Shown: in pieces, positions 27,210 through 62,020 of the stretch
How positions within the stretch are numbered: position 1 is the first letter of the stretch
Layout of the letters: each line of letters begins with the position of its first letter
Source of the DNA: Nitrosovibrio sp. Nv17
Lineage (GTDB): Bacteria; Pseudomonadota; Gammaproteobacteria; Burkholderiales; Nitrosomonadaceae
DNA: 64,000 nt
Reading direction: 5' to 3'
Assembly (NCBI RefSeq): GCF_900119085.1
Contig: NZ_FPIQ01000013.1
Location: 1-64,000 of the forward strand
The notes under the pieces: generated by a model
What the model was told of the DNA's origin: nothing
The model's database searches: none
Seen by the model: only the letters and a program-made list of their open reading frames with translations
Translations under genes and position numbers: made by a program

Positions 27210-28547
27210 TTATCCGGAGCCTCGAAGCGTGCGTTGCGACTGCGGCAAATTGAGTCTCCCGGGCTGGCCTCGAACATTGGTCGCAGTCCCGCTCCTCGAC
27301 CCGGCCTTTTCCCTGAGGTCCTTTTCGACCAGGATGCGCGTCACCACCATCGCCGCCATCAGGTAATAGGGCACGTCGAAATAGAGCAGGCTGAGGAAGG
27401 TGCCCCCCACGGCAAACCCTATCAGGCTCACCTGGATCATGCTCGCCAGGTTGCGGGCCCAGACATGATCCTCGTTTCCGGCAGTATTGCGGATGATCCA
27501 CGACCCCGTCCGCCAGGTCATGAAGCCCAGCAGCAGATATATCCCCAGCCCGATGAACCCATGCTCTCCCAGCGCCTGGAAATAGATGCTGTGCGCCGCG
27601 TGGATGTCAAAGGGATCGGGTGCGTAGCGGAAGAACAGATCGGGTGTCGTGACCTCGAATCCGCCACCGGTCAATGGCCGCTCCTTCGCCAGGTTGTATG
27701 CCATCCACCAGGCGTTGAAGCGCCCCTGGACCGACTCGTCCTCCTCGTAGGTATTGATGGTGTCCATTCTCTTCGACCATTGTTCCGGCATGAAGGCCAG
27801 CAGGAGAGGAACGGACATGACCGCCAGCAGGCCCAGCCCGGCCTTCTGCCGGCTCTTGAGCCAGAGAAATCCGCTCATGGCGACGATCGCGAGCAAGGCA
27901 CCGCGCGAGTACGTTCCGATGGCGGCCACCGCGCACAACAGCATGGATACGGTCAATCCGCGACGCACCCACTTGTTCGGGGATATGGTCTGCAGGTAGT
28001 GCATCAGGGGAATCGTCATGATGAGCGCCAGCGCGATCTCGTTGTTTCCCTCGATGAAGGTGCTCATGGGTCCCCATACCATCTCTCCGCCCCCGCTCCT
28101 GATGGTGAAAACCCCTCCCTTGACGCCGTAGTAGCCCAACGATACGACAATGACCCAGATGAGATGCTGGATCTGCTCTTTGGTTTTGATCAGCATGAGA
28201 ACGATGAAATTCATCAGCATGATCTTCATCACCTTGTTCCACTGGTCATACACAGCGTCGGGATAGATGGCGAAAACCGTGGTGACATTCATCCACAGCA
28301 CGAAAAGAATGAGCAGCCAGGTAAGCGGGGTGAGGGGCAGGTTCTTCGGTTCCCTGCTGAGGAACATGCTCAGCAGGGTGACCCCGGCGATGATGGCGGC
28401 AAACGGAAACGTGGTTGCAAATCCCCAGCCCTGGGTGTGGGGATTCATGACACTGATCCACACCCACATCAGCGCACCGAAGTACGGTCGCTTGAAGGCA
28501 TAGGGAAGCATGCCGAAGACGAGAATGGTGACGAAGACGTCCCTCAT
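27210..28547 (-). CDS. Exosortase A-associated O-glycosylation ligase (Wzy/O-ligase family)
   Basis: This 445-residue membrane protein has about 10-12 helices and a large periplasmic loop (about 250-335). The N-terminal MRDVFVTILVFGMLPYAFKRP and the segment GRFNAWWMAYNLAKERPLTGGGFE match the O-ligase family found specifically with exosortase A systems (TIGR03097 type). It may polymerise or ligate the polysaccharide, or glycosylate PEP-CTERM proteins. The C-terminal tail (about 410-445) is basic and Gly/Ser-rich. Confidence 0.88.
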   Translation of the reverse strand: MRDVFVTILVFGMLPYAFKRPYFGALMWVWISVMNPHTQGWGFATTFPFAAIIAGVTLLSMFLSREPKNLPLTPLTWLLILFVLWMNVTTVFAIYPDAVYDQWNKVMKIMLMNFIVLMLIKTKEQIQHLIWVIVVSLGYYGVKGGVFTIRSGGGEMVWGPMSTFIEGNNEIALALIMTIPLMHYLQTISPNKWVRRGLTVSMLLCAVAAIGTYSRGALLAIVAMSGFLWLKSRQKAGLGLLAVMSVPLLLAFMPEQWSKRMDTINTYEEDESVQGRFNAWWMAYNLAKERPLTGGGFEVTTPDLFFRYAPDPFDIHAAHSIYFQALGEHGFIGLGIYLLLGFMTWRTGSWIIRNTAGNEDHVWARNLASMIQVSLIGFAVGGTFLSLLYFDVPYYLMAAMVVTRILVEKDLREKAGSRSGTATNVRGQPGRLNLPQSQRTLRGSG

Positions 28548-29075: not shown

Positions 29076-30131
29076 TTGAGAATCGCAGTTACAACCTATC
29101 CGATGCTGTGGCAGAGAACAGGCGGCCTGCAGGTACAGATACTCAGGACGGTCGCACATCTGGCCCGGAAAGGCGTGGACGCCAGACTGTTCGACAGCCT
29201 GGGCGCACGCCTCGGAGACTACGATCTGGTACACGTCTTCTCGGCCATCAATGGTGCACATCTGATCCTTCGCGAAGCCCGGGCACAGAATGTGCCGACG
29301 GTGCTCAGTCCAATACTGCAGCCCGGCTACAACTGGCCGAAATTCATGCGCTACCGCGCGGCAAGCAGCCTGACGGGAAAATTGACCGCCTACGAGAACC
29401 GCACGACCTATGACGACATCCTTTCGGCGGTCAGCTGCAGCGATCGCCTGATCGCGCTCAGCGAAGCGGAGCGGCGGGTGTTGACGAATGGCTACTCCGC
29501 CGAGGACAGATTTGTCACCACGATTCCGAACGGCGTGGACGCCGCTTTCTTTTCGGCAACGCCCCATGCGTTCACCGGCCATTTCAACATCCTGTCCGGC
29601 TTCGTGCTGGTGGTCGGCTCAATCTCTTCCTACAAGAACCAGCTCGGAGTGATTCGCGCAACCTTGCAGGTCAGCGAGCGTGACGTTCTGTTGATCGGCC
29701 CCGTCGAGGACGCAGGCTACCTGGAACGCTGCCTGAAGGAAGGAGGAGAGCGGGTGCGGCATCTGGGCATGCTCGCCCACGATGATCCTCTGCTGGGCTC
29801 GGCCTATGCCTCCGCAGGCGTCACGGTGTTGGCAAGCGCAGGCGAAACTTTCGGCCTCACCGCCGTGGAATCACTGGCATCCGGTACCCCCGCGATCATC
29901 ACCGCGGCAAATGGTCTCGGCCTGTCTCCGCAGCCTCCCTGGCTGCAGTACGTCGATCCGGGCGATGCCGGGGATCTCGGACGGGCGATCGGGGCCGCCC
30001 TCTCCGCTCCCATGCCCACGACCGGTCCATGCCGCCAACTGGTCGCCCACCTCGACTGGAAGGCAACGGCGGACAGGATCCTGGAGGTATACCGGGATTT
30101 GACGGGAGCGGGAGCCGGCGCCGCCTCATGA
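29076..30131 (+). CDS. Glycosyltransferase family 4 protein
   Basis: The 351-residue GT-B enzyme has the C-terminal donor-site motif ETFGLTAVE (E-x7-E, about 251-259) and PNGVDAAFF in the linker. The start is TTG at 29076, supported by AGGAG seven to eight bases upstream and by the N-terminal beta strand MRIAVTTYPM. It overlaps the next glycosyltransferase by four bases (ATGA). The sugar donor and acceptor are not evident from sequence. Confidence 0.88.
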   Translation: MRIAVTTYPMLWQRTGGLQVQILRTVAHLARKGVDARLFDSLGARLGDYDLVHVFSAINGAHLILREARAQNVPTVLSPILQPGYNWPKFMRYRAASSLTGKLTAYENRTTYDDILSAVSCSDRLIALSEAERRVLTNGYSAEDRFVTTIPNGVDAAFFSATPHAFTGHFNILSGFVLVVGSISSYKNQLGVIRATLQVSERDVLLIGPVEDAGYLERCLKEGGERVRHLGMLAHDDPLLGSAYASAGVTVLASAGETFGLTAVESLASGTPAIITAANGLGLSPQPPWLQYVDPGDAGDLGRAIGAALSAPMPTTGPCRQLVAHLDWKATADRILEVYRDLTGAGAGAAS

Positions 30132-31396
30132 ATATACGCCACGCCAACGTAAGCAGGGATGAACGCAGCCGCATCCTTTTCATCTCGCCGGTCCCGCCCG
30201 GCCCGGATGGGATCGGCGTCGAGCTGCGTGCATGGTTCCACCTGGAAACCCTGGCAGCCATCGCCGATGTCGATGCAATACTGGCGATGACGCCGGCCCA
30301 GCTCGCCCGGCCCATGGACCTCGACCGACCCCGCGCCCTGTGTCGAAGCCTGAGCGTACTGAAGCTCGATCCGAACCACGAAGCGCCGGGAAGGCGCGTG
30401 CGTGGCCCCAGGCTGCTGGGACGCGTCCTCGACCTGAGCAAGCCTGCCTTCCGGCTGGCGCCGGACGAAGCCGGAAATCTGCGGTCGGTGCTTAGCGACA
30501 GCCACTTCGAAATTGTGTTCTGCTTCCGGATCCGGTCCTACGAGATCCTGGAAAGCCTGGGGGACTTGCCGAACTGGCGGGACAGCCGCCTATTCGTGGA
30601 TTTCGACGATATCGAATCGCTTTCCATGCGTCGGGAGCTGCCTTTCATCAAGCGGACGCTGGGTTTCGAAAGAACGCTCATCGCCCGCCTCGACACCCTC
30701 GAGACATCCCGCCTGGAATCGCGCATCGCGCGCCGGGCCGACATGATCAGCGTGTGCTCGGAAGTGGATCGGCAACGTCTCGTCGAGCGAGAAGGCCATG
30801 CCAGGATCACCGTCATACCGAATTCATACCCCCTCATGCCCGCGCTGCCGTTGCGCCCCATCGGACCGGCTGCAAAGCTGCTTTTTCTCGGAACGCTGTC
30901 CTATCCTCCCAATGAGGATGCCGTCCTGTTCTTCTGCAGGCAGATCTATCCCCGCATACGCCAGATATATGCCGGACGCGTACGGCTGACCATTGTGGGA
31001 AGGCGTCCCGGCAGCAGGGTACGCGCACTGGCGGAAGATCCGTCGATCGTGGTGGCGGGGGATGTGGAATCGGTCGAACCCTACTACGACGAGGCAGACC
31101 TGGTGGTCGCCCCCATCCGGTTCGGCGGTGGCACCCGCATCAAAATCCTGGAGGCGCTCTCGTTCGGGCGCGCCGTGGTCTCCACCACCCTGGGCGCGGA
31201 AGGGCTCGACCTGACGCCTGGGCACGACTTGCGGCTTGCCGACGAACCAGAAAGCTTTGCAGATGCGTGCGTGGAATTGCTGCAGGACCAGGACGCACGC
31301 TTCCGGCTTGCCACTGCGGGCAGGGCCCGCGTTGCCGCGGGATATGGGCGTTCCCACATACAACGCATCCTGGCGCAGCAGATCCTGGACTTATAA
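30128..31396 (+). CDS. Glycosyltransferase (GT4-like) of the exopolysaccharide locus
   Basis: This 422-residue protein has the GT-B motifs FLGTLSYPPNEDAVLFF, VGRRPGSRVRALAED and FGGGTRIKILEA in the C-terminal half, typical of sugar transferases of PEP-CTERM/exosortase polysaccharide clusters. The ATG at 30128 overlaps the previous stop, so the two enzymes are co-translated. Its last six bases overlap the end of the convergent pyruvyl transferase gene. Confidence 0.85.
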   Translation: MNIRHANVSRDERSRILFISPVPPGPDGIGVELRAWFHLETLAAIADVDAILAMTPAQLARPMDLDRPRALCRSLSVLKLDPNHEAPGRRVRGPRLLGRVLDLSKPAFRLAPDEAGNLRSVLSDSHFEIVFCFRIRSYEILESLGDLPNWRDSRLFVDFDDIESLSMRRELPFIKRTLGFERTLIARLDTLETSRLESRIARRADMISVCSEVDRQRLVEREGHARITVIPNSYPLMPALPLRPIGPAAKLLFLGTLSYPPNEDAVLFFCRQIYPRIRQIYAGRVRLTIVGRRPGSRVRALAEDPSIVVAGDVESVEPYYDEADLVVAPIRFGGGTRIKILEALSFGRAVVSTTLGAEGLDLTPGHDLRLADEPESFADACVELLQDQDARFRLATAGRARVAAGYGRSHIQRILAQQILDL

Positions 31397-32608
31397 ACCC
31401 GAAAAATTCTCTCTGGAAAGCTCCCTGATCGCTGCGATGCGATGAGCGATGCGCTCCCGGTATTCCGGGAGCGCCGGCAGTGCTTCGAGGACCCGCGCCG
31501 GCAGTGCATGTTCCTCGTAAGCGGCCACCGGATCGACCAGCAGGGCCTCCAGTCCGAAGTACCCCAGCAAACCCTCGAACTTGCCCATGTAGCCGATGCC
31601 GATGACCGGTGTACCGCTTCCCAGCCCCGCAATGGCGAAATGCATGCGGCCGGTGACGACCAGATCGCTGGCTGCGGCGACGGCCTTGGCGTCCCAGGCG
31701 TGCAGGGGGGATTCCAGCAGGAGGGTCCGCGGCTTCGCCCTCTCGTCGAGCCGCGACACGATCTCCAGATGACAGAGATGATCCGATTCCCTGCCGCGAA
31801 AATCGTGGGGCACCAGCACGAAACGCAGCGTGGCGTCCTGCGCCGCCAGACCATTGATCATCTCCGCATAGGCGGCATGGATGGCGCCGGGCGTGGAAGG
31901 GTAGGTCAGGACATTGCCGTTGAGTGCGAGGATCCTCGCGCCCCCGGCATGCTCATCCCGCATCCAGGCCAGCGCACGCAGGGCGGCCGGACTCTCGGCC
32001 CTTGCGGTGACCAGAAAGGCCAGATCCGCCACCTGCCTGGCCGATCGTCCGGTGAATTCTTCAAAGCGTCTGCGCGACACGGGATCGCGTGAGCAGCACA
32101 CAATTTGCGGTGCAAGGGATTTGAATCTTTCGACCACGCAGGGATTCGGTTTCTCCGAGAAACTGAATCCGAGCAGGCGGGAAGGAATGCCCGCGGAAGC
32201 CGCCAGGTCGAGCGCACGCAGGTAATACAAGGCCTGGCCCTCGTCGTAACGACCGTCTATCACGTCGGCCCCCAGCACGCAGAACAGTCTGGCATGGCGC
32301 AATGCCAGCAGGAGGCGCAGATCCGAAAGCGTACCGGGGCAAACCGCGATCGAATGGACTCCTCCTTCCAGTAGGGTAATCGCCTCGTAGTTGGGCAGCA
32401 ACACCTGGCGAAGCCGGCAATTCCAGCCCTTCGCGAGGCCATCGTTCAGTCCCTGGAGAAGCGCCTGGTCCCCCAGGCTGCCGGCGGATGCGGGGGGTGC
32501 CACCAGAATTTCCATCTGCTTCCAGGGTGCCAGACGCCGATGGATCCGCACGTATGCACGGGTCATCGACAACAGCAGTCCAGCAATGAGTCTCTTGATC
32601 ATGATCAC
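31391..32608 (-). CDS. Polysaccharide pyruvyl transferase family protein
   Basis: The 405-residue protein fits the PF04230 family (CsaB/WcaK type) that transfers pyruvate from PEP to sugars to give ketals. Visible points are the N-terminal GSLGDQALLQGL loop, VADLAFLVTA, LVPHDFRGRESDH and the C-terminal VTGRMHFAIAGLGSGTPVIGIGY, which holds the conserved RxHxxI region. It could add acidic pyruvate groups to the exported polymer. The start may be 32608 or the ATG two codons later. Confidence 0.85.
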   Translation of the reverse strand: MIMIKRLIAGLLLSMTRAYVRIHRRLAPWKQMEILVAPPASAGSLGDQALLQGLNDGLAKGWNCRLRQVLLPNYEAITLLEGGVHSIAVCPGTLSDLRLLLALRHARLFCVLGADVIDGRYDEGQALYYLRALDLAASAGIPSRLLGFSFSEKPNPCVVERFKSLAPQIVCCSRDPVSRRRFEEFTGRSARQVADLAFLVTARAESPAALRALAWMRDEHAGGARILALNGNVLTYPSTPGAIHAAYAEMINGLAAQDATLRFVLVPHDFRGRESDHLCHLEIVSRLDERAKPRTLLLESPLHAWDAKAVAAASDLVVTGRMHFAIAGLGSGTPVIGIGYMGKFEGLLGYFGLEALLVDPVAAYEEHALPARVLEALPALPEYRERIAHRIAAIRELSRENFSGL

Positions 32609-32686: not shown

Positions 32687-34156
32687 TCAACGCTCCCCTT
32701 TTCCTTTCGGCAGGAACGCGGACAGATGGCGGCGCAGGGTTTCGATCTCGGAGCGGAGCGGATGGCGGAGCCAGTACACCCCGATCAACCAGGCCGTCAT
32801 CGCCAGGATACCGGCTATCGTCAATTGCCAGAAACTTCCCGGGTACATCCCCGTCATCCTCGAACCGACAAGCAGCATGCCCGGGCCGGAAACGGCGATC
32901 GCCGCCAGCGCGTAGCTTCGCCAGATGCACCGGAACAATCCGGAAAACCCCAACCCGATCGCCTTCTTCATGGCAGCCAGGTAGATATTCACCTCGATGC
33001 AGTATGCCAGACCCAGAACCAGGACCATACTCTCCAGATCGATGATCACCGTCGTCGATATGACCAGGATGCGGATGCCCTGAATCCATAGCTGGGTACG
33101 CATGAAGATGTCTATCTTGCCACAGGCCACCAGCGCGACACCTGTCAGGACAAACGGAGCGGTCAGCATCGCGTACGCGCACAAGAGACTCGCGAGCGGC
33201 GCCGAACGGTCCCACTGGGATCCGAACAGGAAATGGATCAGGGGCTCTGCGAGCAGCGCGAACACCGCGAGCAGGGGAACCGTCAATCCGGTCAGTTGAG
33301 TGATCCCCTGCAGATAGATGGCCGAAGGGCTCGCTCCCTCCCGCACGCGCCTGGCAAAGGCGGGAAAGAATACGCCCCGGACGATGTTGGTGAAATCCGA
33401 CATCACCAGATTCATGACGCCCCAGGCACGGCTGTAGAAAGCCACCTCCGCGAAACCCAGCGTTCCACCGATGATGAGATCGGGAGCAGCCGAACCAACC
33501 TGCCCCGCCAGCGATGCCACGCTGGAGCGGGCCCCAAAATGGAATATTTCCCTCATTCCCGCCAGACGCGGCATCAGCAGCGCATCGGCGGGGCGCATCG
33601 CGACGAGTATCGCCGTGGTCGCAAGGACGCCGGCAAGGGAGCCCCACGCCATGCTCATGTAGCTGAATCCGTTCAACGCAAGAGAAACGGTGACCGCCAG
33701 CTGCACCACGTTGGCACTGATACTGACCAGCGCTATGCGATCGAACCGCATCTCGCGGCGCAGCATCGAGAGCAAGGGCGCGCCAAAAGGCAAAATGGCG
33801 AAATTGAGGGCCAGGACGGCGAGTATCTCGGCAATGCCGGCGTTCTGGTAGAACCCGGCTGCGGGCTGGCGGGCCAGAAAAAAAAGGAGCGCCACCGACC
33901 ACGAGATGAGGATCATCATGGTGCTGGCACTGCGCAGGCGATCGCGGCTGATCTCCGCGGCCTGAACAAGATACTGGCCGATACCGAAATCCCGGAAGAC
34001 GTGACCGAATGCGATCAACGAAAGCGATACCGAGAACAGTCCGATTTCTTCCGGAGTCAGCAGGCGGGCAACGACGACAGAACCGGTCAGGCCCAGCAGG
34101 AACGAAGCGCCCTGGCTGGCGCCGTTGATAAGCAGCGAACGGCGTACTGTCGTCAA
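32687..34156 (-). CDS. Wzx-type polysaccharide flippase
   Basis: The 489-residue protein of the polysaccharide transporter (PST/MATE-fold) family has about 12-14 membrane helices and the usual N-terminus (NGASQGASFLLGLTGSVVVARLLTPEEIG in parts). It flips lipid-linked repeat units across the inner membrane. The start is TTG at 34156, and the sequence TTGA there overlaps the stop of a possible 35-residue ORF upstream, which supports this start. A basic C-terminal tail follows the last helix. Confidence 0.88.
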   Translation of the reverse strand: MTTVRRSLLINGASQGASFLLGLTGSVVVARLLTPEEIGLFSVSLSLIAFGHVFRDFGIGQYLVQAAEISRDRLRSASTMMILISWSVALLFFLARQPAAGFYQNAGIAEILAVLALNFAILPFGAPLLSMLRREMRFDRIALVSISANVVQLAVTVSLALNGFSYMSMAWGSLAGVLATTAILVAMRPADALLMPRLAGMREIFHFGARSSVASLAGQVGSAAPDLIIGGTLGFAEVAFYSRAWGVMNLVMSDFTNIVRGVFFPAFARRVREGASPSAIYLQGITQLTGLTVPLLAVFALLAEPLIHFLFGSQWDRSAPLASLLCAYAMLTAPFVLTGVALVACGKIDIFMRTQLWIQGIRILVISTTVIIDLESMVLVLGLAYCIEVNIYLAAMKKAIGLGFSGLFRCIWRSYALAAIAVSGPGMLLVGSRMTGMYPGSFWQLTIAGILAMTAWLIGVYWLRHPLRSEIETLRRHLSAFLPKGKGER

Positions 34157-34496: not shown

Positions 34497-35726
34497 ATGC
34501 TGATCCAGAATGTTCGCAGAATCGACAACGATGAACGCACCTCCGTGATCGCCTCCGTCACCTACGAGCAACGGCAGGCAGACACCCAGGATATCAGCGT
34601 TTCCATTCCCGCCAGCCACGCCAGCCTGCTTGGCTGCAGCTATGAAGCCTTTTTGCTGATGGTTTTTTCGGCCGCCCTGTTCCATCGAGAGGAGCGCATC
34701 CACGTCGAGGGTCCAGCCTGCCCCGTACTCATGAACAACCTGCGCGCCGCGATGCGGCTCCAGCGCAACTGGTTCCAGCCCGCAGACCCGCTACCCGTAC
34801 TGTCGGCCGCGGAAGAGAAAGTGAACCCCGGCGGATCCGTCGACCGAAAGGTCGGAGCCTTCTACTCCGGCGGCATCGATTCGACGGCAGCGTTGCTGTC
34901 GCATGCCTGGACGTTCGACACGGAGCATCGGGAAGCCCTCGAGTATGCATTCCTGGTCTATGGGCTCGATATCGGCGATCCCAGCCGCGAACCCGGCCAT
35001 GAATTGTTCGATCATGCCCTGCGCACCCAGGGCAAGGTTGCCTCCGAACTTGGAATCGAAATGGTACCGATCTGGACAAACGTCAGGTTACTGGAACCGG
35101 ACAGCCATCTGTACGCACGTTACCAATTCGGGGCGATCCTGTCCGGAATCGCTCACTGCATGAGCCAGTGTATCAGGAAAGTTCATATGGCATACAATAA
35201 CATCATCGATATGTATGAACCCTGGGGAGACCATCCTACGCTGGTTCCCCTGCTCTCCAGCACCCACCTGGCGTTCTCGGGCGCACTGCTCCACCTTACC
35301 CGTTTCGAGAAGCTTGCGATCATCGCAAGATCCGAGACCGCACTTTCCAACCTGCGCGTATGCTGGAACACCGATTTCATACCGGATGGCTATCTCAACT
35401 GCGGCCGATGCGAAAAATGCCTTCGCACCAAGCTCGAACTGCTGGCCATCGGCATTCCGGAGATGGGGGTGATGTTCCCGGATTCACGAATAGATCCCGA
35501 TATGCTCCGGTCGTTGCATGCAGACCACTTTCCCGAAAACGAGTACTACAGGGAACTCATAGAACCTCTCCACCAACGCGGATATCACGAACTCTCGGAC
35601 ATCATTCGATTGATCACGCGGCAGCCAACCACCGGCCTGTGGCCATCCTATGCGAGGATGATGGTGAAAAGAAGGTACTGGAAGATGCTCGGATCGCTTC
35701 AGGATTCCTCCTCGAAAAAAAAATGA
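34497..35726 (+). CDS. PP-loop ATP pyrophosphatase-like protein with CxxC tail
   Basis: The 409-residue soluble protein has the PP-loop motif SGGIDST (about residues 124-130), as in enzymes that adenylate a substrate with ATP (asparagine synthase C-domain, QueC, ExsB). A CGRCEKCLRTK motif near residue 308 is similar to the Zn or thiol motif at the end of QueC-like proteins. No glutaminase domain is attached. It stands alone among sugar genes, transcribed opposite to both neighbours, and ends 24 bases before the convergent ligase. Substrate is unknown; amide or thio modification of a polymer component is possible. The ATG at 34497 is preferred over 34452. Confidence 0.65.
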   Translation: MLIQNVRRIDNDERTSVIASVTYEQRQADTQDISVSIPASHASLLGCSYEAFLLMVFSAALFHREERIHVEGPACPVLMNNLRAAMRLQRNWFQPADPLPVLSAAEEKVNPGGSVDRKVGAFYSGGIDSTAALLSHAWTFDTEHREALEYAFLVYGLDIGDPSREPGHELFDHALRTQGKVASELGIEMVPIWTNVRLLEPDSHLYARYQFGAILSGIAHCMSQCIRKVHMAYNNIIDMYEPWGDHPTLVPLLSSTHLAFSGALLHLTRFEKLAIIARSETALSNLRVCWNTDFIPDGYLNCGRCEKCLRTKLELLAIGIPEMGVMFPDSRIDPDMLRSLHADHFPENEYYRELIEPLHQRGYHELSDIIRLITRQPTTGLWPSYARMMVKRRYWKMLGSLQDSSSKKK

Positions 35727-35750: not shown

Positions 35751-37139
35751 CTACTGCGATCTCGCTGCGTCATTCGATGGCGCCCCCGGTCCCGAGGAGA
35801 TGCGACTCACCACATAGCGGAATTTTCCCGATCTTTCCGCCGGAATCTCCGGCACCTGCTCGACGGCAATCTCGACCCGCTCACCCAACCTGGCCCGAAA
35901 CCCTTGCTGGATCGCGTCGATGAGCGCCGGAGCGGCAACGGATTCGGAAACCACCAGCACGCGAGTCAAATCCAGGCTCTCCTGAATGATCTTGAATGCC
36001 TGGACCTGGGGAAGATCGCGCAGAATGTAGATCAGAGCCAGGCCATGCATGACGGTCCCGTCCTGCGCCACCAGAAAATCCGTGCTGCGGCCCTGGATCT
36101 CCCTGAGCAGAGGCAAGCCGCGACCGCAGCCACACATCTGGCTGTCCAGTACCCCGATATCACCGGTGCGATAGCGTATGAAAGGAAAATCCGGCGTGGC
36201 GAGATGAGTCACGACGATCTCCCCTGCTTCGCCTTCCGGCAACGGGACTCCCTCCTGGTCCACGATCTCGACGATGACGTCCTCGGCCGTCAGGTGCATG
36301 CCGCCCTCCGGGCATTCGTGCGCGATGAAACCCGCATCGCGGCCGCCATAGCCGTTTGCCACCGGGCATCCGAAGGTTCCCCCGATCTGCCGGCGCTGCT
36401 CGTCGTACAGCCGTTCCGATGTCACGAAGGCCACGCGTATGCCCAGATCGTCCATGCGCCGCCCCGTCGACTCGGCATGGCGGGCGATATGCGAAAGAGC
36501 GGATGGATAGCCGAACAGCATTCGGGGGCGTACTCTACGAATCTCCTCCAGGAATCGATCGAGCTTCTGTGCCGACATCTCGAAGGCGGGCAGCAACCGG
36601 GTCCGGAACAGCCTGTCGCGCAGGGCGCGCAATCCATCCTGCGCCCCGAGTTCGATGGGAGAGCCCCATACCACGATCTCCGGATCGCCGATGTCAACCC
36701 CCCACCAGCGCGTCGCGCGCCACTTGGCTGCGACGTCGTGACTGACGCGCTCGCTGCCGATGTGGAAGATCAGTGGCACACCACTGGAACCCCCCGTGTT
36801 GAAACGTGCCAGACCAACCGCCCGCTCCGACTTGAGCGCGTCGAGATGCTGGCGTATAACGGCCTTGTCGAGCATGGGCAGACCCGGAAGCTCCGAAATC
36901 GAGCGAATGGCGTCGGGGACGAACCCGATTCGCTTGAAGAGGTTCCGGTAGTACGGCACGTGCGTTCCCGCATGGTCGAGCAGCCGGTGCAGCCGGCGCA
37001 GGCGGAGCGCTTCCAGGCGATCCCGGTCCCACCATTGGGAACTCTCCATGTCCCTGCGCACCGCCAGGCTGCTGTGCCGCTTGAGGCGTTCGTGCAACGG
37101 GAAAATCAGTCCGGATATCAACGAGGTATACCAGTCCAT
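35751..37139 (-). CDS. PaaK/CapK-like adenylate-forming enzyme
   Basis: The 462-residue protein resembles phenylacetate-CoA ligase and CapK of capsule clusters. It has the phosphate-binding loop FNTGGSSGVPL, the GYGGRDAGFIAHECPEGG segment with conserved cysteine, and the C-terminal hinge FIRYRTGDIG. Members activate a carboxylic acid as acyl-AMP, then pass it to CoA or a carrier. An acyl carrier protein lies further right (43176) and could be the acceptor; this link is inference. Start ATG 37139, with 37154 possible. It lies five bases after the glycosyltransferase stop. Confidence 0.8.
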   Translation of the reverse strand: MDWYTSLISGLIFPLHERLKRHSSLAVRRDMESSQWWDRDRLEALRLRRLHRLLDHAGTHVPYYRNLFKRIGFVPDAIRSISELPGLPMLDKAVIRQHLDALKSERAVGLARFNTGGSSGVPLIFHIGSERVSHDVAAKWRATRWWGVDIGDPEIVVWGSPIELGAQDGLRALRDRLFRTRLLPAFEMSAQKLDRFLEEIRRVRPRMLFGYPSALSHIARHAESTGRRMDDLGIRVAFVTSERLYDEQRRQIGGTFGCPVANGYGGRDAGFIAHECPEGGMHLTAEDVIVEIVDQEGVPLPEGEAGEIVVTHLATPDFPFIRYRTGDIGVLDSQMCGCGRGLPLLREIQGRSTDFLVAQDGTVMHGLALIYILRDLPQVQAFKIIQESLDLTRVLVVSESVAAPALIDAIQQGFRARLGERVEIAVEQVPEIPAERSGKFRYVVSRISSGPGAPSNDAARSQ

Positions 37140-37143
37140 GTCC

Positions 37144-38265
37144 TCAGCCAGCATCCTCGCGGCTTCCCGCCGTGCGTTGCTCGAGCGCCCCCGCATAGAC
37201 TTCCAGCAGACGTGGCCGCACCTGCGGCCATGCATACCGCCGAACTGCGACAAGTCCCGCCGCACGGATCCGTTCCGCCCTGCCTGGATCGCCGAGCAGC
37301 GCAAGCACGGCATCGGCCATGGCCGAGTGATCCCCGGCCGGCACCAGCAGTGCGGTCTCCCCGTGTGTGACGAGGTGCGGCACGCCCCCAACGTCGGTGC
37401 TGACGACCGGAACACCGCTGGCCAACGCCTCCAGGATCGAGATCGGCATGTTGTCGGCCAGACTGGGGTTGATCATGATGTCGGCGCGACGATAGATCTC
37501 GGCCATGCCCGCATTGTCCACACGACCGGTAAACGTCACTGCGTCCACGACGCCGAGCTCCGCCGCCAGCCCGGCCAGAAACCGGTGCTGCGGCCCGGTC
37601 CCCGCGATGGTGAGCGTGGCCGCGGGAAATACCCGCCGGATCCGGTCGAAGGCCCTCAATGCCGTCGCATTATCGTAGATGGGCTCCAGGTTGCGGCTCA
37701 CGACGAGGTGGGGCGCCGCGGCCTTCAGCGGCATCGGCCGGCCGACTCCGCCCGGGAATCGGTCGAGATCGATGATGTTGGGCACGACATGGACGGGAAA
37801 ACCCCACTTGCCGAACACCTCTTCCAGGAAGGCGGACGGCACGACGATGGCGCTCGCCCGGCGCAGGCTGGGCCCGATCCAGGCGAAGGACCGCTCGAAG
37901 AAGACGTCCGCTTCGCCGCCACGGTAGTTGACGATGACCGGTATCTGCCGGATCCAGGCGATCCAGATCGCAGGTGCGGCGAACAGATGCCACGACCATC
38001 CTGAGTTGGCCATCACGTGGAACAGCCGCACGCGGCCGGAGGCCCGCCACAGATGCGTCAGGTAGGGGACCAGCCGGAACAAGGCCCTGAGTCCCTTCAA
38101 GCGGCCGATCCCGGGCGGGCGGTAGGGACGGTTGACCTGGATCAGGTCCACCACGATGCCTTCCCTGCGCAACAGCCCCGCCAATTGCAGCGTCTGGTTG
38201 GCCATGCCTCCGGACGGCGGCGGCAGGGGGCCTACCAGCCCGATATGCAGATCGGAGGGGATCAC
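37144..38265 (-). CDS. Glycosyltransferase family 4 protein
   Basis: The 373-residue GT-B enzyme has the N-terminal glycine-rich loop GPLPPPSGGMANQTLQL and the C-terminal donor motif NMPISILEALASGVPVVSTDVGG. It overlaps the next upstream gene by four bases, so genes 35751-41896 form one minus-strand run. Donor and linkage are not evident. Confidence 0.9.
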   Translation of the reverse strand: MIPSDLHIGLVGPLPPPSGGMANQTLQLAGLLRREGIVVDLIQVNRPYRPPGIGRLKGLRALFRLVPYLTHLWRASGRVRLFHVMANSGWSWHLFAAPAIWIAWIRQIPVIVNYRGGEADVFFERSFAWIGPSLRRASAIVVPSAFLEEVFGKWGFPVHVVPNIIDLDRFPGGVGRPMPLKAAAPHLVVSRNLEPIYDNATALRAFDRIRRVFPAATLTIAGTGPQHRFLAGLAAELGVVDAVTFTGRVDNAGMAEIYRRADIMINPSLADNMPISILEALASGVPVVSTDVGGVPHLVTHGETALLVPAGDHSAMADAVLALLGDPGRAERIRAAGLVAVRRYAWPQVRPRLLEVYAGALEQRTAGSREDAG

Positions 38266-39482
38266 CCCGGCGGATCCGGGTTGTGAACCAGGGCGGCATA
38301 GATTCCCTCATAGCGGGCCACGCTGCCGCGCCAGGTGCGCTGCGTTTCCACGAAGCTGCGGGCCGCGCTCCGCAGCCCGGGCCATCGGTGCGGGCTGGCC
38401 AGCAGATCCAGAGCCTTTTCCGCCAGATCCGATGAAGATCCCGCTGCGAAAAGTATGCCGGTCCGGCCGTCCTCGATGAGCTCGCGATGCCCGCCGACGT
38501 TGGATGCCACCACCAGTCGCCCCTGCGCCATGGCCTCCAGCGGCTTGAGGGGTGTGACTAAGTCGGTCAGGCGCATCCGCAGCCTCGGATAAACGAGCAC
38601 GTCGACCAGATCGTAATACCGTTGCACCTGGCCGTGGGGGACGCGCCCGGTGAAGACCACCCGATCCTGCAGACCCAGTTCGGCGGCAAGAGCCCTGAGT
38701 GCCCGCTCCTGGGGGCCTCCTCCCACCAGCAGCACGCGAATGTCGGGATTGCGGGCCAGCAGTTGCGGCAGCGCCCGCAGCAGGATCTCCAGTCCCTCGT
38801 AGGCGTAAAAGGAGCCAATGAACCCCAGCACTTGCCTGCCCGCCAATCCCAGCGAGCCGGCAAGCTGCGGATCAGCTGCGCCACCCATGCTGAAATCCGC
38901 GATGTTCACGGCATTGGGAATGACCGTCACCTTCTCCGGCGCGATGCCTCGACCGAGAATGTCGTTGCGCAGTCCTTCGCATATGGTGGTCACGGCGTCG
39001 GCCCGGCGCAAGGCATGGCTCTCCAGTCCCCGGGTCAGGCGATAGCGGATGCTTCCTTCCCTGCTGGTGCCATGATCCACGGCCGCGTCTTCCCAGAACG
39101 CCCTGACCTCGTAGACCACCGGAATACCCTGGCGCCGGCCCACGCGCAAGGCGGGCAGGGCGTTCAGCACGGGGGAGTGGGCGTGCAGGACGTCCGGTCT
39201 GACGATCCCCGCCACTTCATCCAGCCGTTGCGCCAGACGCTCGACGACCGCGAGCTGATTCACGACCGGCATCTTCGATGCCAGGCCGGTCGCGGGAGGG
39301 GTACGATGGAAAAACCATCCATCGACCTCCTCCTCGCGGGCAGTACCGCCGCCCTGCTTTGGACCAGTCAGATGGAAGGTCTCCCATCCACGCGCGCGCT
39401 GCTCCGCCAGGATCGACAGCGTGCGGAAGGTGTAGCCGCTGTGCAGCGGCAGGGAATGATCCAGGATGTGCAGAATGCGCAT
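38262..39482 (-). CDS. Exosortase A-associated glycosyltransferase (Daro_2409-like)
   Basis: The 406-residue GT4 protein starts MRILHILDHSLPLHSGYTFR and carries TPLKPLEAMAQGRLVVASNVGG, both characteristic of the glycosyltransferase family seen almost only with exosortase A (TIGR04063 type). The ATG at 39482 begins this conserved sequence; the frame upstream is overlap with the next gene. It makes part of the polysaccharide coupled to PEP-CTERM protein sorting. Confidence 0.88.
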   Translation of the reverse strand: MRILHILDHSLPLHSGYTFRTLSILAEQRARGWETFHLTGPKQGGGTAREEEVDGWFFHRTPPATGLASKMPVVNQLAVVERLAQRLDEVAGIVRPDVLHAHSPVLNALPALRVGRRQGIPVVYEVRAFWEDAAVDHGTSREGSIRYRLTRGLESHALRRADAVTTICEGLRNDILGRGIAPEKVTVIPNAVNIADFSMGGAADPQLAGSLGLAGRQVLGFIGSFYAYEGLEILLRALPQLLARNPDIRVLLVGGGPQERALRALAAELGLQDRVVFTGRVPHGQVQRYYDLVDVLVYPRLRMRLTDLVTPLKPLEAMAQGRLVVASNVGGHRELIEDGRTGILFAAGSSSDLAEKALDLLASPHRWPGLRSAARSFVETQRTWRGSVARYEGIYAALVHNPDPPG

Positions 39483-39486
39483 GGCG

Positions 39487-40791
39487 TCAATCGCCCCTGC
39501 GGGATAAGCGCATTCCCAGCACGACGGCTGCCCAGGCGGCATACATGATGATCCACGGCATCGCCGGGAAATGGAATCGCGACTGCCCGGAAAACACCAC
39601 GGATATGAGCGTGAGGTATGCCATGAGGCAGTAGCCGATCGATACCCAGGGCCACGCAACGTCGTGTTTTCCCCTGGACAGCAGAACGAGGGTCACGAGG
39701 GAGCCGACCAGCATCAGGGCATAGAGGACCTGATTCGCCCACCTGATCGAGCGGAAGAGGGACTGATGGCGCGGATAATGGGGATAGCCTGCCTGATAAG
39801 CCCATTCGGCCTCGCCGTCCTTGGCCCAAAGATGCCACATCTTGAGCGGAATCAACTCGACGAACCGACCGGGATTCTCCCTGATCCACGCAAGGGCCAG
39901 CTGCTTTGCCCTGCGATCCGACTCCACCTGACGCCGCGTTGAAAAATCACGTTGCAGCACCAGCGGATCGTTTTCTATGTAGCTCCCGTCCGCGCTGGGA
40001 TTGTTTCCGGTCAGCAGCGTCGCACCGCCATTGGTGGAAATGAGCACCACTTCGCCGAACACTAGCGTATTGCGCACGGCCCATGGCACGAGCACGCCGG
40101 CCATGACCAGATAGATGCAGCAGCCCTTGACGACGGTCTCCGCCAGGCTTGTCTCGCGACCGGCGGCAACGATGCGGAAAAGTATCAGGAGTGCCGGCAG
40201 GAACACGATCTGCGGTTTGGTCAGGGCGGCGAATCCGAAGACCAGGCCCGATCCGAATACCCAGCCCCATCCGTTCCGGGAGATGTACAGATAAACGCCG
40301 AGCAGCAACAGGAAGGTGAAGTAGATCTCGGTGAGCAGCAGCGGCGTATAGGCGATGTTGTTGGGATACAGGGCGAGCAGCAGGACCCCCAGGCGGGCGG
40401 TTGTCTCGCTGCGGAAAAGCTGGCGCGTCAATTTCAACTGCAGGAGGAAGATTCCCGCGGCCATCAGCAGGTTGGCCAGCTGGCCGACGATTTGATGGGG
40501 ACCCGCCAGATGGAAGAGTATCCCCAGGAACCCCGGATAGCCGACGGGCCAGTAGGCTGTGGGATGGCCGTCCTCGACATACCCCTCGCCATTCGCGATG
40601 CCCAGCGCGCGATTGAGATACCAGCGCGAATCCGAGTCCATCTCGAGCGGAACAGCGAAGATCAGGGCAGCACGGAGCCCGATGAACAGGATGAAACACA
40701 GGGGAATGAAGTAGGGTGAGTCCAGCACGCGAAACGGTGCAGCGGCCGATCCGGATTTCCTCCCAAGACTATTTTCCGGGACCGGGAGCAT
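39487..40791 (-). CDS. ArnT/PMT-like membrane glycosyltransferase (GT39 type)
   Basis: The 434-residue membrane protein has about ten helices. The first periplasmic loop holds the acidic pair in EMDSDSRWYLNRALGIA, the usual place for the catalytic Asp of GT-C enzymes, followed by TAYWPVGYPGFLG. It probably uses a polyprenyl-phosphate sugar made by the adjacent DPM-like enzyme (40769), which it overlaps by 23 bases. Confidence 0.8.
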   Translation of the reverse strand: MLPVPENSLGRKSGSAAAPFRVLDSPYFIPLCFILFIGLRAALIFAVPLEMDSDSRWYLNRALGIANGEGYVEDGHPTAYWPVGYPGFLGILFHLAGPHQIVGQLANLLMAAGIFLLQLKLTRQLFRSETTARLGVLLLALYPNNIAYTPLLLTEIYFTFLLLLGVYLYISRNGWGWVFGSGLVFGFAALTKPQIVFLPALLILFRIVAAGRETSLAETVVKGCCIYLVMAGVLVPWAVRNTLVFGEVVLISTNGGATLLTGNNPSADGSYIENDPLVLQRDFSTRRQVESDRRAKQLALAWIRENPGRFVELIPLKMWHLWAKDGEAEWAYQAGYPHYPRHQSLFRSIRWANQVLYALMLVGSLVTLVLLSRGKHDVAWPWVSIGYCLMAYLTLISVVFSGQSRFHFPAMPWIIMYAAWAAVVLGMRLSRRGD

Positions 40792-41896
40792 GCTTGAACG
40801 TCCAGTAGGAGTTCAGGAAATAATTGATGAGCATGGCGGGTGCGATGCCGGCCAACTGGTGAACGGTCGGCGGCGTTTCCGGGAAAAGCATCGAGAGGGT
40901 CACGAACGTGGAATAGCTGACCAGCAGGGAGACGAGCGAAACCATATTGAATTTCAGGCCCTTGATGCGCACATGATCCTGCGATCTCCGCCAGCGGAAG
41001 GTCCAGTAATTGTTCAGCAGAAAATTGGTGATGATCGATACCTCGATCGAAATGGGAGAGGCCAGGTATTTGTTCACTCCGGCCTGGAGCAGCAGCGTGA
41101 ACACGCCGAGGTTCACGATGACGCCTGACAGTCCCACGATGGCGAACTTGATGAAAGTCTTCGAACTGTGCAGTCGAATCCACCAGGCGTTCAGGATGAA
41201 CTCGACGATATCCGAGATCCCGAGCTTGGATTCCCCCTCGGTGCGATCGATGAAATCCACCGGCACTTCCCTGATCGTCGCACCGAGCGATGCCGCCTTG
41301 TGCAGCAGCGCCACCTGGAAGGCATACCCCTGCACCCGGAGATCCTCGAACACGATCTTCCTGAGCAGCGGCGTCCTGATCGCCCGGAATCCTGCGGTGC
41401 AGTCACGAATCCCGTACAGGCCCGCGACATAGCGTCCCACGATGTTCCCACCCAACGAGTTCAGGCGACGCAGCAGGCCCCATTCCTTGGGGATCGATCC
41501 TCCCTTGACGTAGCGGCTGCCGATGACGAAGTCAGCGCCTTCCACCAAGGCTGCCATCAGCCGCGGAACGTCCTCCGGCTTGTGCGAGAAATCGGCATCC
41601 ATCTCGAATACAACGTCTGCCTTCAACGCATCCATGGAGTGCATCATGCCGCGAATGTATGCAGCCCCCAATCCCGCCTTCTGTCCCATCAGAAGATGCA
41701 CATTGGCATTCTTCGCGTCAGTCTGCTTCAGGCGCACGATATCCGCCGTGCCATCGGGCGAATTGTCATCCACCACGAGAATATGCATGTCATGCCGCAT
41801 ATGCTGGAACTGTGCCTGCAGGGCGTCGATGATGGACCCGATGTTATTCCGCTCGTTGTATGTGGGTAGAATTACGACCGCTTTGAGGCACGTCAT
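40769..41896 (-). CDS. Dolichol-phosphate mannosyltransferase-like GT2 fused to GtrA domain
   Basis: This 375-residue protein has an N-terminal GT2 catalytic domain (VVILPTYNERNNIGSII, VVDDNSPDGTADIV, DxD-like EMDADFSHKPEDV and RTEGESKLG) and, from about residue 245, a four-helix GtrA domain (KFAIVGLSGVIVNLGVF, NNYWTFRW). It transfers a hexose to a polyprenyl phosphate and helps bring it across the membrane for GT-C enzymes such as the next gene. Its start is at the left of a divergent intergenic region. Confidence 0.9.
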   Translation of the reverse strand: MTCLKAVVILPTYNERNNIGSIIDALQAQFQHMRHDMHILVVDDNSPDGTADIVRLKQTDAKNANVHLLMGQKAGLGAAYIRGMMHSMDALKADVVFEMDADFSHKPEDVPRLMAALVEGADFVIGSRYVKGGSIPKEWGLLRRLNSLGGNIVGRYVAGLYGIRDCTAGFRAIRTPLLRKIVFEDLRVQGYAFQVALLHKAASLGATIREVPVDFIDRTEGESKLGISDIVEFILNAWWIRLHSSKTFIKFAIVGLSGVIVNLGVFTLLLQAGVNKYLASPISIEVSIITNFLLNNYWTFRWRRSQDHVRIKGLKFNMVSLVSLLVSYSTFVTLSMLFPETPPTVHQLAGIAPAMLINYFLNSYWTFKHAPGPGK

Positions 41897-47106: not shown

Positions 47107-48183
47107 CTATCGTCTGGATTGCCGCCTGCCTGGGGAACCAGGCTCTTCCCGATCGGGCGCAAGATGGGCCACATACCACGCCAGCGCCTCAGTCAACCCC
47201 TCTTCGATCCGATGGGTCGGGGAAAAGCCCAGCATCGCTGCAGCCCTGGAAATATCCGCCTGCGAATGCCGTACGTCGCCCTTGCGAAAATCCACATACG
47301 TCGGCTCATGATGCCGCAGATGGGGGAAAGTCTCCTGTAGCAGTCCGCGTATCATCTCATAGAGCCGGTTGAGACTGGTGCGCTCGTTCAGCGCGACGTT
47401 GTAAACCTGGTTGACAGCCTCGGCATTGTCGGTCAGTGCCGCCAGCAGGTTGATCTGGATCACATTCTCTATGAAACAGAAGTCCCGGCTGGTCTCCCCG
47501 TCACCATTGATATACAGCGGCCTGTTTTCCACCAGGGCAGCGACCCACTGGGGAATCACCGCCGCATACGCGCCGTTCGGATCCTGCCTCGGGCCGAAGA
47601 CATTGAAATAGCGCAGCCCTATCGAGTTCGTGCCATAGCAGCGGGCGAAAACATCCGCGTACAGTTCGTTGACGTACTTGGTCACCGCGTAGGGCGAAAG
47701 CGGCCGGCCGATCACCGGCTCCACCTTGGGCAAATCCGGATGATCCCCGTAGGTGGAACTCGACGCCGCGTAGACGAAACGCCTCACGGATGCATCCCGG
47801 GATGCCACCAACATGTTCAGGAATCCCGATATGTTGTTCTCGTTGGTGCGCACCGGATCCTGGATGGAACGGGGGACCGACCCCAGGGCCGCCTGGTGCA
47901 GCACGTACTCCACGCCCCTGCACGCCTCGATGCACGCCTCCGGCTGACGGATATCGCCCTCGATCAGCGTGAAGCTCCGCCAGGCCCGCTCCCCGACCAG
48001 ATCGCGGACCTGCTCCAGGTTGTACCGATGGCCCGTGGAAAGATTGTCCAGTCCGACCACCTCCTGGCCATGCCTCAGCAAGGCTTCCAGCAAATTGGAA
48101 CCAATGAATCCGGCGACACCCGTCACCAGCCATCGATGGCGATGATCCTCCAGGTATTCCAGAACGCCTTGGTACGCTGTCAT
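47107..48183 (-). CDS. UDP-GlcNAc/UDP-GlcNAcA 4-epimerase (WbpP/TviC-like)
   Basis: The 358-residue extended SDR protein has the Rossmann motif [10 protein letters not shown], the serine triplet [10 protein letters not shown] and YAVTKYVNE (YxxxK). The N-terminal lead before the Rossmann motif is typical for WbpP and TviC, which act on UDP-N-acetylhexosamines. With the dehydrogenase at 48322 it would give UDP-GalNAcA-type precursors, as in Vi antigen synthesis. Confidence 0.88.
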
Positions 48184-48321: not shown

Positions 48322-49602
48322 CTAAAGCCGCCAGACGTTGAGCCCTGCCGCTTTCAACGCAACCGGATCGAGCTGGGACTTGACGTCGATGAAGCATCCC
48401 CGGTCGGTAACCTTGGACTGGAATTCGGGCAATGGCCTGCTGACGAATTCGTGATGCGAAACCGCGAGGATGATCGCATCGGCACGCGGCAACTGCTCCC
48501 AGGACTCCAGTGCCAGCCCGTACTCCTCCCGGGCCTCGTCGGGATCCGCGACGGGATCGTGCACATGGATCTCCACTCCATACGATTCGAGCTCCCGCAC
48601 CAGGTCGGCAACCTTGGAATTCCTCAGGTCGGGGCAATTCTCCTTGAAGGACAGGCCCAGCACATTCACGCGCGCACCCCGGACGTTGATGCCCGCCTTG
48701 ATGATCTGCTTGACCGTCTGCTCCGCGACGAACTTCGCCATGCTGTCGTTGATGCGGCGCCCGGCCAGGATGACCTGCGGAATGTAGCCGATCATTTCCG
48801 CCTTGTGCGTCAGGTAGTAGGGATCGACTCCGATGCAATGTCCCCCCACCAAGCCCGGGCGGAAGGGAAGAAAATTCCATTTGGTTCCCGCGGCCCGTAG
48901 TACCTCTGCGGTATCGATCTCAAGCTTGTCGAAGATGATGGCCAGCTCGTTCATCAGGGCGATGTTCAGGTCCCGTTGCGTATTCTCGATCACCTTGGCG
49001 GCCTCCGCGACCTTGATGCTGGAAGCGCGATGGACGCCCGCCGTCACCACGCTTTCATACAGGGCAGCGATCTTCTCCAGGGTATCCTCGTCATCCCCCG
49101 AAACGACCTTCAGGATAGTGGTCAGCCGGTGCTGCCTGTCGCCGGGGTTGATGCGCTCGGGGGAAAACCCGACATGGAAATCGGTTTTCCATTTCATGCC
49201 GGAGTACTTTTCCAGAACCGGGATGCAGATCTCCTCCGTCGCGCCCGGATACACCGTGGATTCGTAGATGACGATCGCACCCCGTTTCATGTGTTTCGCC
49301 ACGGCCTGGCTGGCACCGGTGAGCGCGGTGAAGTCGGGCTGGTGGGCGAGATCCACCGGGGTGGGAACGGCGACCACGATGTAATCGGCCTGAGCCAGTT
49401 CCGCAGCATCGGTGGTGACGACGAGCTGCCCGGCCGCCGCGAAATCTTCGGTCGGCACCTCGCCGGTGGGGTCCACCTGACGCCGGTAGCTCTCGATCTT
49501 GCTGGTGGAAAGATCGTAGCCTATGGTATGCCGCTTCTTGCCGAATTCGACAGCCAGCGGAAGTCCCACATAACCCAGCCCCACCACCGCCACTACGCTC
49601 AT
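48322..49602 (-). CDS. tviB: UDP-N-acetylglucosamine C-6 dehydrogenase (TviB/WbpO-like)
   Basis: The 426-residue NAD-dependent enzyme oxidises the C6 of a UDP-HexNAc to the uronic acid. It has GLGYVGLPLAVEFG, VVAVPTPVD, STVYPGATEE, NPGDRQHRLT and the catalytic cysteine in GGHCIGVDPYYLTHK, all close to TviB/VipA. GlcNAc versus GalNAc preference cannot be told from sequence. It is followed by the 4-epimerase on the same strand after a 138-base gap. Confidence 0.9.
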   Translation of the reverse strand: MSVVAVVGLGYVGLPLAVEFGKKRHTIGYDLSTSKIESYRRQVDPTGEVPTEDFAAAGQLVVTTDAAELAQADYIVVAVPTPVDLAHQPDFTALTGASQAVAKHMKRGAIVIYESTVYPGATEEICIPVLEKYSGMKWKTDFHVGFSPERINPGDRQHRLTTILKVVSGDDEDTLEKIAALYESVVTAGVHRASSIKVAEAAKVIENTQRDLNIALMNELAIIFDKLEIDTAEVLRAAGTKWNFLPFRPGLVGGHCIGVDPYYLTHKAEMIGYIPQVILAGRRINDSMAKFVAEQTVKQIIKAGINVRGARVNVLGLSFKENCPDLRNSKVADLVRELESYGVEIHVHDPVADPDEAREEYGLALESWEQLPRADAIILAVSHHEFVSRPLPEFQSKVTDRGCFIDVKSQLDPVALKAAGLNVWRL

Positions 49603-61611: not shown

Positions 61612-61838
61612 GTTTTTTGCTCCTCTCTTAACAGAATATTATTTGATATGCATATCTATCTCATCTGTTGTATCGTTGTTGTTCATTGTTCGTTGTGCGT
61701 TGTGCGTTTTTTACGCATCTGTACACTCGTGCCACTCGATGGCCATAACCACCATCTCCCCCAAAATCATCACTCCTGACTATCCGCTGGATATACCGGC
61801 CGATCACTGAAGATTCCGAATTCATAAAATGAAATCGA

Positions 61839-61911: not shown

Positions 61912-62020
61912 ACCAACAGAAAAATCTCTGTTTTAACAATAAATTAAATTATATAAACAGCAGTCTCCACCCAGATGGAGGGAACGAGAAGCAGAGTTTC
62001 TCACTGAAGAGCCCTATCCC

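Follow-up and report, generated by a model that had tools for sequence, protein, structure and literature searches.

A QueC-like PP-loop protein of an unnamed family in an exopolysaccharide locus, with a possible role in activating glycan carboxylates

What might a PP-loop protein do among the genes for an exopolysaccharide? The question is raised by an open reading frame of Nitrosovibrio sp. Nv17, found in a 64,000-nucleotide stretch of contig NZ_FPIQ01000013.1 that was analysed as a whole and is called the window below. An initial annotation, made from the letters alone, had read the motifs SGGIDST and CGRCEKC as marks of a PP-loop enzyme in an exopolysaccharide locus and suggested that it might amidate, thiolate or ligate a polymer or sugar-nucleotide component. 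The gene does lie in an exopolysaccharide locus, as the annotation had it; family-model scans show this locus to be of the exosortase-A type, with the TIGR03097 ligase accompanied by glycosyltransferases, a flippase and a protein of the PF04230 family. The genes concerned are as follows.

27210 to 28547, minus strand: O-glycosylation ligase, exosortase A system-associated (TIGR03097; 537 bits against a cut-off of 188.1, scored at 27213-28547)
29076 to 30131, plus strand: GT4 glycosyltransferase (Pfam scan)
30131 to 31396, plus strand: GT4 glycosyltransferase (Pfam scan)
31391 to 32608, minus strand: PF04230 polysaccharide pyruvyl-transferase family protein (PF04230 E 1.6e-15)
32687 to 34156, minus strand: polysaccharide flippase (Polysacc_synt_3, E 8.5e-58)
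34497 to 35726, plus strand: predicted QueC-superfamily PP-loop protein, 409 aa (ORF, motif, alignment and structure-model evidence)
35751 to 37415, minus strand: AMP-binding CoA-ligase-like protein, PaaK type (listed GTG start probably too far upstream)
37144 to 38265, minus strand: GT4 glycosyltransferase (Pfam scan)
38262 to 39482, minus strand: GT4 glycosyltransferase (Pfam scan)
39487 to 40791, minus strand: PMT_2-type membrane glycosyltransferase (Pfam scan)
40769 to 41896, minus strand: GT2 glycosyltransferase with GtrA membrane domain (Pfam scan)
47107 to 48183, minus strand: TviC-like UDP-HexNAcA C4-epimerase homologue (478.6 bits, below the model cut-off of 760)
48322 to 49602, minus strand: TviB-like nucleotide-sugar dehydrogenase, a possible source of a sugar carboxylate (TIGR03026 383.2 against a cut-off of 189.8; TviB model 493.9, below 592)

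The PF04230 gene lies two genes from the PP-loop gene on the opposite strand, those for the TviC-like and TviB-like proteins follow 11-13 kb downstream of it, and a further GT4 glycosyltransferase is encoded at about 45 kb, beyond the four between 29 and 39.5 kb. As the initial annotation had stated, tRNA-modification genes were not found among the window neighbours scanned; nor did the ten scanned (glycosyltransferases, flippase, PF04230, AMP-binding) include qatA, qatD, a Mur ligase or an adjacent murD2. Rfam, at gathering scores, placed one tRNA in the window. The PaaK-like AMP ligase at 35751-37415, which sits beside the PP-loop gene, is likewise of an adenylating type.

The PP-loop frame opens with an ATG at 34497, and an in-frame GTG lies upstream at 34452. 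Because Met1 of the ATG form falls in a 90%-conserved column of a 40-row family alignment, 34497 is the likely start. Three regions of the protein bear on its function.

34497 to 34832, plus strand: predicted N-terminal alpha/beta domain, residues 1-112 (model pLDDT 94.6; best PDB Z 5.9, not significant)
34866 to 34883, plus strand: PP-loop SGGIDS, residues 124-129, predicted to bind the ATP pyrophosphate (motif, alignment)
35361 to 35420, plus strand: putative zinc-type four-cysteine (Cys4) site C289, C302, C305, C308 (40 of 40 rows; QueC profile match there)

SGGIDST spans residues 124-130 (34866-34886) and CGRCEKC residues 302-308 (35400-35420); together with C289 (35361-35363), the latter gives the spacing C-x12-C-x2-C-x2-C. 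What had been described as a CxxC tail is thus present but internal, at residues 289-308 of 409, and is part of a four-cysteine site. All four cysteines are invariant across the 40-row alignment (40/40), and C-x(5-22)-CxxCxxC occurs in 132/132 family rows (132 of 136 copies, short ones omitted), of which 125 keep [ST]GGxD[SAGC] and 98 keep SGGxDS. Since both motifs are near-invariant across the family rows, they stand far above chance, and their reading as marks of a PP-loop enzyme is borne out.

Family models gave the protein no name. Pfam and NCBIfam scans matched 0 families at E up to 10, and the amidotransferase domain is absent, in line with the initial annotation; a PDB sequence search gave no match. 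The gathering score of PF06508 (QueC) was not reached by any of ten relatives scanned (top 14.9 bits against 22). NF041925 (QatC) did not match the window protein, and relatives reached at most 11.8 bits against a cut-off of 280, while NF041275 (MurL) left the window protein unmatched at E up to 10. No orthologous relation to any known enzyme of tRNA or cofactor metabolism, the outcome that the initial annotation had named as a refutation of its reading, emerged from the Pfam and NCBIfam scans; the genome (2.84 Mb, 56 contigs) encodes a separate, true QueC elsewhere, at 247 bits. An asparagine-synthase reading was also considered and rejected, as neither the Asn_synthase model nor a glutaminase domain was matched (Pfam, E up to 10). 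Of the annotation's "QueC/asparagine-synthase type", therefore, the first half stands, in that the protein is QueC/QatC-like by fold and cysteine site, and the second does not.

The fold was assessed on a structure model built from the 40-row alignment (pLDDT 90.3, pTM 0.88), in which SGGIDS directly follows a strand at residues 118-122. Foldseek found no match in the PDB at E 0.001 or better. Among structure models, four viral ones of QueC or ThiI type did pass that threshold. With VIA-align, the comparison that had been suggested from the outset placed QatC first (Z 14.8; 4.6 A, 291 aligned, model residues 1-373), followed by QueC (Z 12.5; 3.3 A, 180) and Cap9 (Z 11.4; 3.1 A, 171), with the next rows at about 10 and LarE among the matches. 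The 50 rows shown range from Z 8.6 to 14.8, cover mostly residues from about 115 to 350 and are titled as PP-loop enzymes, YcfA among them. On the evidence of the model, the core is predicted to be HUP/Rossmann-like and of the PP-loop (N-type ATP pyrophosphatase) superfamily. Searched by itself, the N-terminal domain gave only RNase H/integrase-like arrangements at Z up to 5.9, none significant.

Sequence profiles point the same core toward QueC. The family matched QueC (PF06508) most strongly, at the Cys4 site (E 5.6e-5 and 4.2e-8; 0 of 60 column shuffles scored as high), and QatC weakly (hhalign E 0.0023-0.0082). Like QueC, the window protein has a PP-loop core and a Cys4 site; unlike QueC, it carries about 110 residues before the core and lacks the substrate motifs. 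Because YxQxHxxE, VPxRN and YPDC occur in 0/132 family rows, carboxy-deazaguanine is an unlikely substrate. Cap9, from type IV CBASS, shares the QueC core with its PP-loop and Cys4, but it is of minimal length and retains its CDG-binding motifs, according to the accessible part of PMC13329287. QatC, from the qatABCD anti-phage defence system, combines that core with an N-terminal extension (PMC13279940, in the portion available). Its first cysteine spacer differs, being x19 as printed in the available portions of PMC13279940 and PMC13329287 and x9-x10 in three QatC rows, against x12 in the window protein. The printed pattern C(x)19CGxCxxRR, found in 0/132 family rows, fails these three QatC rows as well and so does not tell the two apart. 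The QatC sequence profile hardly matches the family. With NF041925 unmatched and qatA and qatD absent from the window neighbours scanned, QatC was ruled out as an orthologue.

The chemistry of these relatives is instructive. In QueC and Cap9, a carboxylate is activated and then attacked by an amine, and the same has been proposed for QatC, as far as the accessible text describes (PMC13279940, PMC13329287). The latter source also places WbpG, an N-sugar amidotransferase of an O-antigen pathway, in the QueC family; its text does not mention polysaccharide, pyruvyl, ATP-grasp or MurL. WbpG shares with the window protein a PP-loop and a surface-polysaccharide pathway, while its cysteine motif differs and no model of it matches the window protein. 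With WbpG as a PP-loop enzyme of such a pathway, PP-loop chemistry in these loci is not entirely without precedent, which qualifies the annotation's remark that it knew of no such chemistry there (PMC13329287). A lysine is reportedly kept in QueC (K165) and QatC (a TK motif), again from the accessible part of PMC13329287. K272 of the window protein, which is K in 38 of 40 rows and R in 2, is a candidate counterpart of it by alignment, the alignment of positions being uncertain.

The window protein belongs, by sequence searches, to a large and patchy family that has no name and forms a new branch of an enzyme superfamily already known. Counting its own genome each time, the family was found in 7/229 class genomes (protein search), in 14/299 phylum genomes (profile search) and in 8/399 order genomes; seven of the 14 phylum genomes gave weak matches only (E 9.7e-5 to 7.0e-4), which by inspection are GMP synthase, TilS and QueC. 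In the order-level search, it was absent from the one congener and eleven other listed genomes of the same taxonomic family. It also occurs on 14 plasmid records, and a scan of a contig collection with one pattern matched at least 589 stretches, at least 542 of which encode relatives; no stretch of the viral contigs matched the peptide patterns. On a tree of 132 rows, the window protein groups with the copies of L042 (42% identity) and L043, a grouping marked 100*. Tandem copies occur in several loci. For example, a Nitrospirales locus (L086:8470-16559) has the gene in tandem, with four complete copies and at least two partial ones, and at L045:2573-3775 an enolase-type protein (PF00113) lies between tandem PP-loop copies. 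A second, divergent copy was observed in the Nitrosovibrio genome itself, on contig 29 (L138:9567-11270), with a degenerate loop SLGVDS and an over-extended listed ORF start; the ORFs around it look by eye like ordinary metabolic genes, with no recognised polysaccharide neighbours, and a Pfam scan of two of them gave nothing.

Gene neighbourhoods were compared across 117 loci with 136 copies, many of the loci being short and the short duplicates L001-L012, L018-L041 and L122-L130 being omitted; the loci taken from the contig collection are the best 80 of at least 542 relatives and lean to Desulfobacterota. Two settings emerged. A RimK-type ATP-grasp or GNAT gene lies within three genes in 50 of the 117 loci, nearly all of them in Desulfobacterota-type or 'Deltaproteobacteria' genomes, and the same-strand order GNAT, RimK, PP-loop is kept in 37 of 50 copies (e.g., L107:8939-11119), with RimK and the PP-loop gene overlapping by 4 bases in 9/44. 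The RimK of L107 scores 194.6 bits on TIGR00768 against a cut-off of 143.4. The remaining 67 are either polysaccharide-like or without assignment; counted among them, despite its RimK and GNAT genes, is L061, whose PP-loop ORF was lost in gene picking. On the tree, the RimK/GNAT rows require one label change when set against the PF04230 rows and four when set against all rows, and L064, L091 and L111 fall in the RimK clade, yet carry no RimK/GNAT labels. AsnO acts with GNAT and RimK in the synthesis of NAGGN, and the Desulfobacterota-type operon resembles that logic of GNAT, RimK and PP-loop; it differs in having no glutaminase domain and a RimK that scores 35.7 against a cut-off of 569 on TIGR03103. 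The gene order itself brings to mind a pathway for an acylated dipeptide or a compatible solute.

By local profile, PF04230 is present in 19/117 loci and absent from 98/117, and a flippase is present in 12/117. In Pfam tallies of two sets of flanking proteins (75 and 101; 176 of 216 listed, the 25 commonest families), PF04230 was counted 7 and 5 times, Polysacc_synt_3 3 and 5 times and GT2 4 and 7 times. When gene order was shuffled within loci, with four near-duplicate loci omitted and with profiles seeded partly from known neighbours, PF04230 adjoined the PP-loop gene in 10/12 loci against 2.35 expected and the flippase in 9/12 against 2.16, whereas GT4, the comparison, showed no enrichment (3/18 against 4.33). 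Seeding bias was checked by shuffling without the five seed loci, which left PF04230 adjacent in 7/7 loci against 1.64 expected, and by a Pfam-based search of 20 family-bearing genomes. The latter gave 31 PF04230 matches in 14 genomes; the gene was adjacent or fused to the PP-loop gene in 4 genomes and within 3 kb in 5, and none lay within 3 kb in 15. An accident within a single lineage does not account for the pairing, because the tree shows at least 11 changes of the PF04230 label, a number that short loci may inflate. There is one true PP-loop/PF04230 fusion (G177, L011/L148; PF04230 E 1.1e-12). A second candidate, in L135 (741 aa), was rejected as an over-long ORF in which the family match covers residues 355-703 and Pfam finds nothing. 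In Azospirillum, the PF04230 and PP-loop genes lie together outside any obvious polysaccharide locus.

Other neighbours vary. An ABC-transporter ATPase precedes the PP-loop gene in L046, L089, L057 and L049 (two Chloroflexota, one Nitrospirales and one Desulfobacterales), and carboxylate-amine ligases lie near some members: RimK, an ATP-grasp in L152, an annotated Mur-ligase-family gene in L017 and, by local profile, a similar one in L086. The window's nucleotide-sugar dehydrogenase was rejected as a general partner: a single-seed search, which undercounts, found homologues of this UDP-sugar dehydrogenase in 2/67 non-RimK loci, window included, and missed the annotated UDP-glucose/GDP-mannose dehydrogenase of the Priestia loci. 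Its AMP ligase was likewise set aside (2/67 non-RimK loci, window included, single-seed search). Uronic acid is therefore unsupported as a general substrate, dehydrogenase homologues being found in few loci, though undercounted. The association with polysaccharide genes beyond the window, which the initial annotation had left to be surveyed, does recur in other loci, but the RimK/GNAT context accounts for 50/117 loci and PF04230 for only 19/117. For part of the family, a role in polysaccharide assembly has good support.

Enzymes of the PF04230 family put a carboxylate on sugars, and enzymes with the core described here use ATP to activate a carboxyl or carbonyl group, which is followed by amine attack in QueC and Cap9 and by inversion of the neighbouring carbon in MurL. 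For these two reasons, adenylation of a carboxylate on a glycan is likely to be the shared step. Tentatively, at a little less than an even chance, we propose that the PP-loop enzyme adenylates a glycan carboxylate, which an amine then captures, during surface-polysaccharide assembly. ATP would be held by the SGGIDS loop, and a carboxylate on a sugar, sugar nucleotide or lipid-linked repeat unit would be adenylated. The best candidate would be the carboxylate added as a pyruvyl ketal by the PF04230 protein, with a uronic acid also possible in the window. Ammonia or an amino compound would then capture the acyl-adenylate to yield an amide, before or around the step at which the neighbouring flippase flips the unit. 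The predicted fold class, the intact ATP and Cys4 motifs, the missing QueC substrate motifs and the specific neighbourhood in part of the family are observed; from there, we infer the carboxylate target, the amine nucleophile and the identity of the substrate. The observation behind the initial annotation is confirmed and its interpretation partly supported: "amidate or ligate" remains the best guess for the reaction, and thiolation is weaker.

A further option, one that the initial annotation did not include, is now live. In MurL-type epimerisation, the glycan carboxylate would be adenylated, the adjacent carbon would lose a proton and take one up on the opposite face, and the adenylate would be hydrolysed, giving a one-way, ATP-driven inversion. 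MurL is a one-way peptidoglycan epimerase that makes AMP from ATP and, according to two reviews, lacks known domains (PMC5808125, PMC8788868); a Pfam scan of MurL likewise gave no family. For MurL of Salinispora tropica, the activity is reported to have been confirmed (PMC8788868). A protein beside a MurD-type ligase in L225 (6092-7528) is MurL by NF041275 (810.6 bits against a cut-off of 700), and its relative in L226 (5889-7250) scores 546.6, below that cut-off; relatives occur in 7/229 class genomes, 5 of them strong. MurL resembles the window protein in length, in having an N-terminal part before the PP-loop and in a Cys4 that ends in CxxCxKC; it acts on a glycan-linked carboxylate, as is proposed for the window protein. 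In most profile comparisons, MurL and the family can be aligned co-linearly from the PP-loop through to the Cys4 site: hhalign covered 170-176 columns with the A1 alignment (E 2.1e-6) and with the 131-row and 81-row alignments (E 0.0084 and 0.0055), and re-cut A1 and 81-row alignments gave E 8.5e-4 and 0.0055, with 0/60 column shuffles as high. The pairing of RimK with the Desulfobacterota-type members also mirrors that of MurD2 with MurL, which adjoins a MurD-type gene in L225, L226 and L227; in G163, they are on separate contigs.

The profile match to MurL is weak, however, and alignment-dependent, with only 23 columns aligned at E 0.006 when the A3 alignment is used. The loop is SGGxDS in 98/132 family rows against GGGKDS in 4/4 MurL rows, where the cysteines read SSCN...CGVCPKC, and the Cys4 region scores nearer QueC (48.3) than MurL (35.4). 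The MurL stretch comparable to the K272 region reads RPxSEL in 4/4 rows, the alignment of positions again being uncertain. The match is read, on profile evidence, as distant kinship and not as proof that the functions are equal; inversion by this family is rather unlikely, though it is the chief rival to amide formation. Fold and motifs leave amide formation and inversion undecided, because MurL, which aligns over the PP-loop domain, is an epimerase; amide formation is the more likely outcome of adenylating a glycan carboxylate. From the perspective of MurL itself, the link offers an ATP-dependent epimerase a likely fold, ATP site and metal site. No paper pairing MurL with QueC or a PP-loop was found in the open-access literature.

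Two other outcomes of the same core chemistry are improbable. The first is modification of a protein N-terminus, as in Cap9 and as proposed for QatC, by which a small carboxylic acid would be joined to the N-terminus of a partner such as the PF04230 protein or the flippase. QatC is the best structural match, with the full-model alignment taking in its N-terminal extension but the N-terminal domain alone finding no significant match, and the gene pairing is tight, with one PF04230 fusion; yet the partners vary by locus among PF04230, flippase, ABC transporter and RimK, and the CDG-recognition motif YPDC is missing in 132/132 rows, though QatC lacks it too, according to the accessible part of PMC13329287. 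Sulfur transfer of the LarE, TtuA, NcsA or ThiI type, in which an adenylated glycan carboxylate or carbonyl would be thiolated, has small odds as well. The PP-loop fold is shared and LarE, TtuA and NcsA are among the structural matches, but the cysteines match the QueC site by profile and not the three-cysteine [4Fe-4S] motif of LarE (PMC13329287, in the portion available), and the scanned neighbours included none named as a sulfur carrier or desulfurase, the tallies being of the 25 commonest families.

HisH/HisF-like proteins, the ammonia source of WbpG, were not named among the scanned neighbours either. Synthesis of an acetamidino or amidine group on an N-acetyl sugar is very improbable, even with WbpG as a PP-loop enzyme of an O-antigen pathway, since the window protein has no NCBIfam match at E up to 10 and, by inspection, no CxxC(x)6CxC, the motif given for the WbpG cluster in the accessible part of PMC13329287.

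If glycan carboxylates are indeed activated as proposed, polysaccharide groups that are amide-linked or stereochemically inverted would have a candidate enzyme in this family. It is conceivable, if doubtful, that QueC-like PP-loop enzymes, MurL included, form a widespread and unnamed class of glycan-carboxylate activators, whose exopolysaccharide members would act with PF04230 either to amidate the fresh carboxylate or to invert the adjacent carbon. We know of no enzyme class for such a modification of polysaccharides. In the open-access literature, no paper joined PP-loop, pyruvyl transferase and polysaccharide, and those found for QueC-like with polysaccharide, or for PP-loop with exopolysaccharide, were on other subjects, going by titles and the opening of abstracts. 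A large protein family with neither a Pfam nor an NCBIfam model appears to have a part in building the surface polymers of bacteria.

Some minor observations concern plasmids and the far end of the window. A Priestia plasmid that carries the family (L161:16243-16702) also encodes an annotated DUF6395 protein; no paper on DUF6395 was found in the open-access literature, and its match to the Cys4 region, seen in some members of the family, is weak. Within window positions 61045-63246, two similar secreted-looking proteins are encoded on opposite strands (61045-61611 and 62635-63246), and near this pair lies an ORF of low third-position GC (59793-61058).
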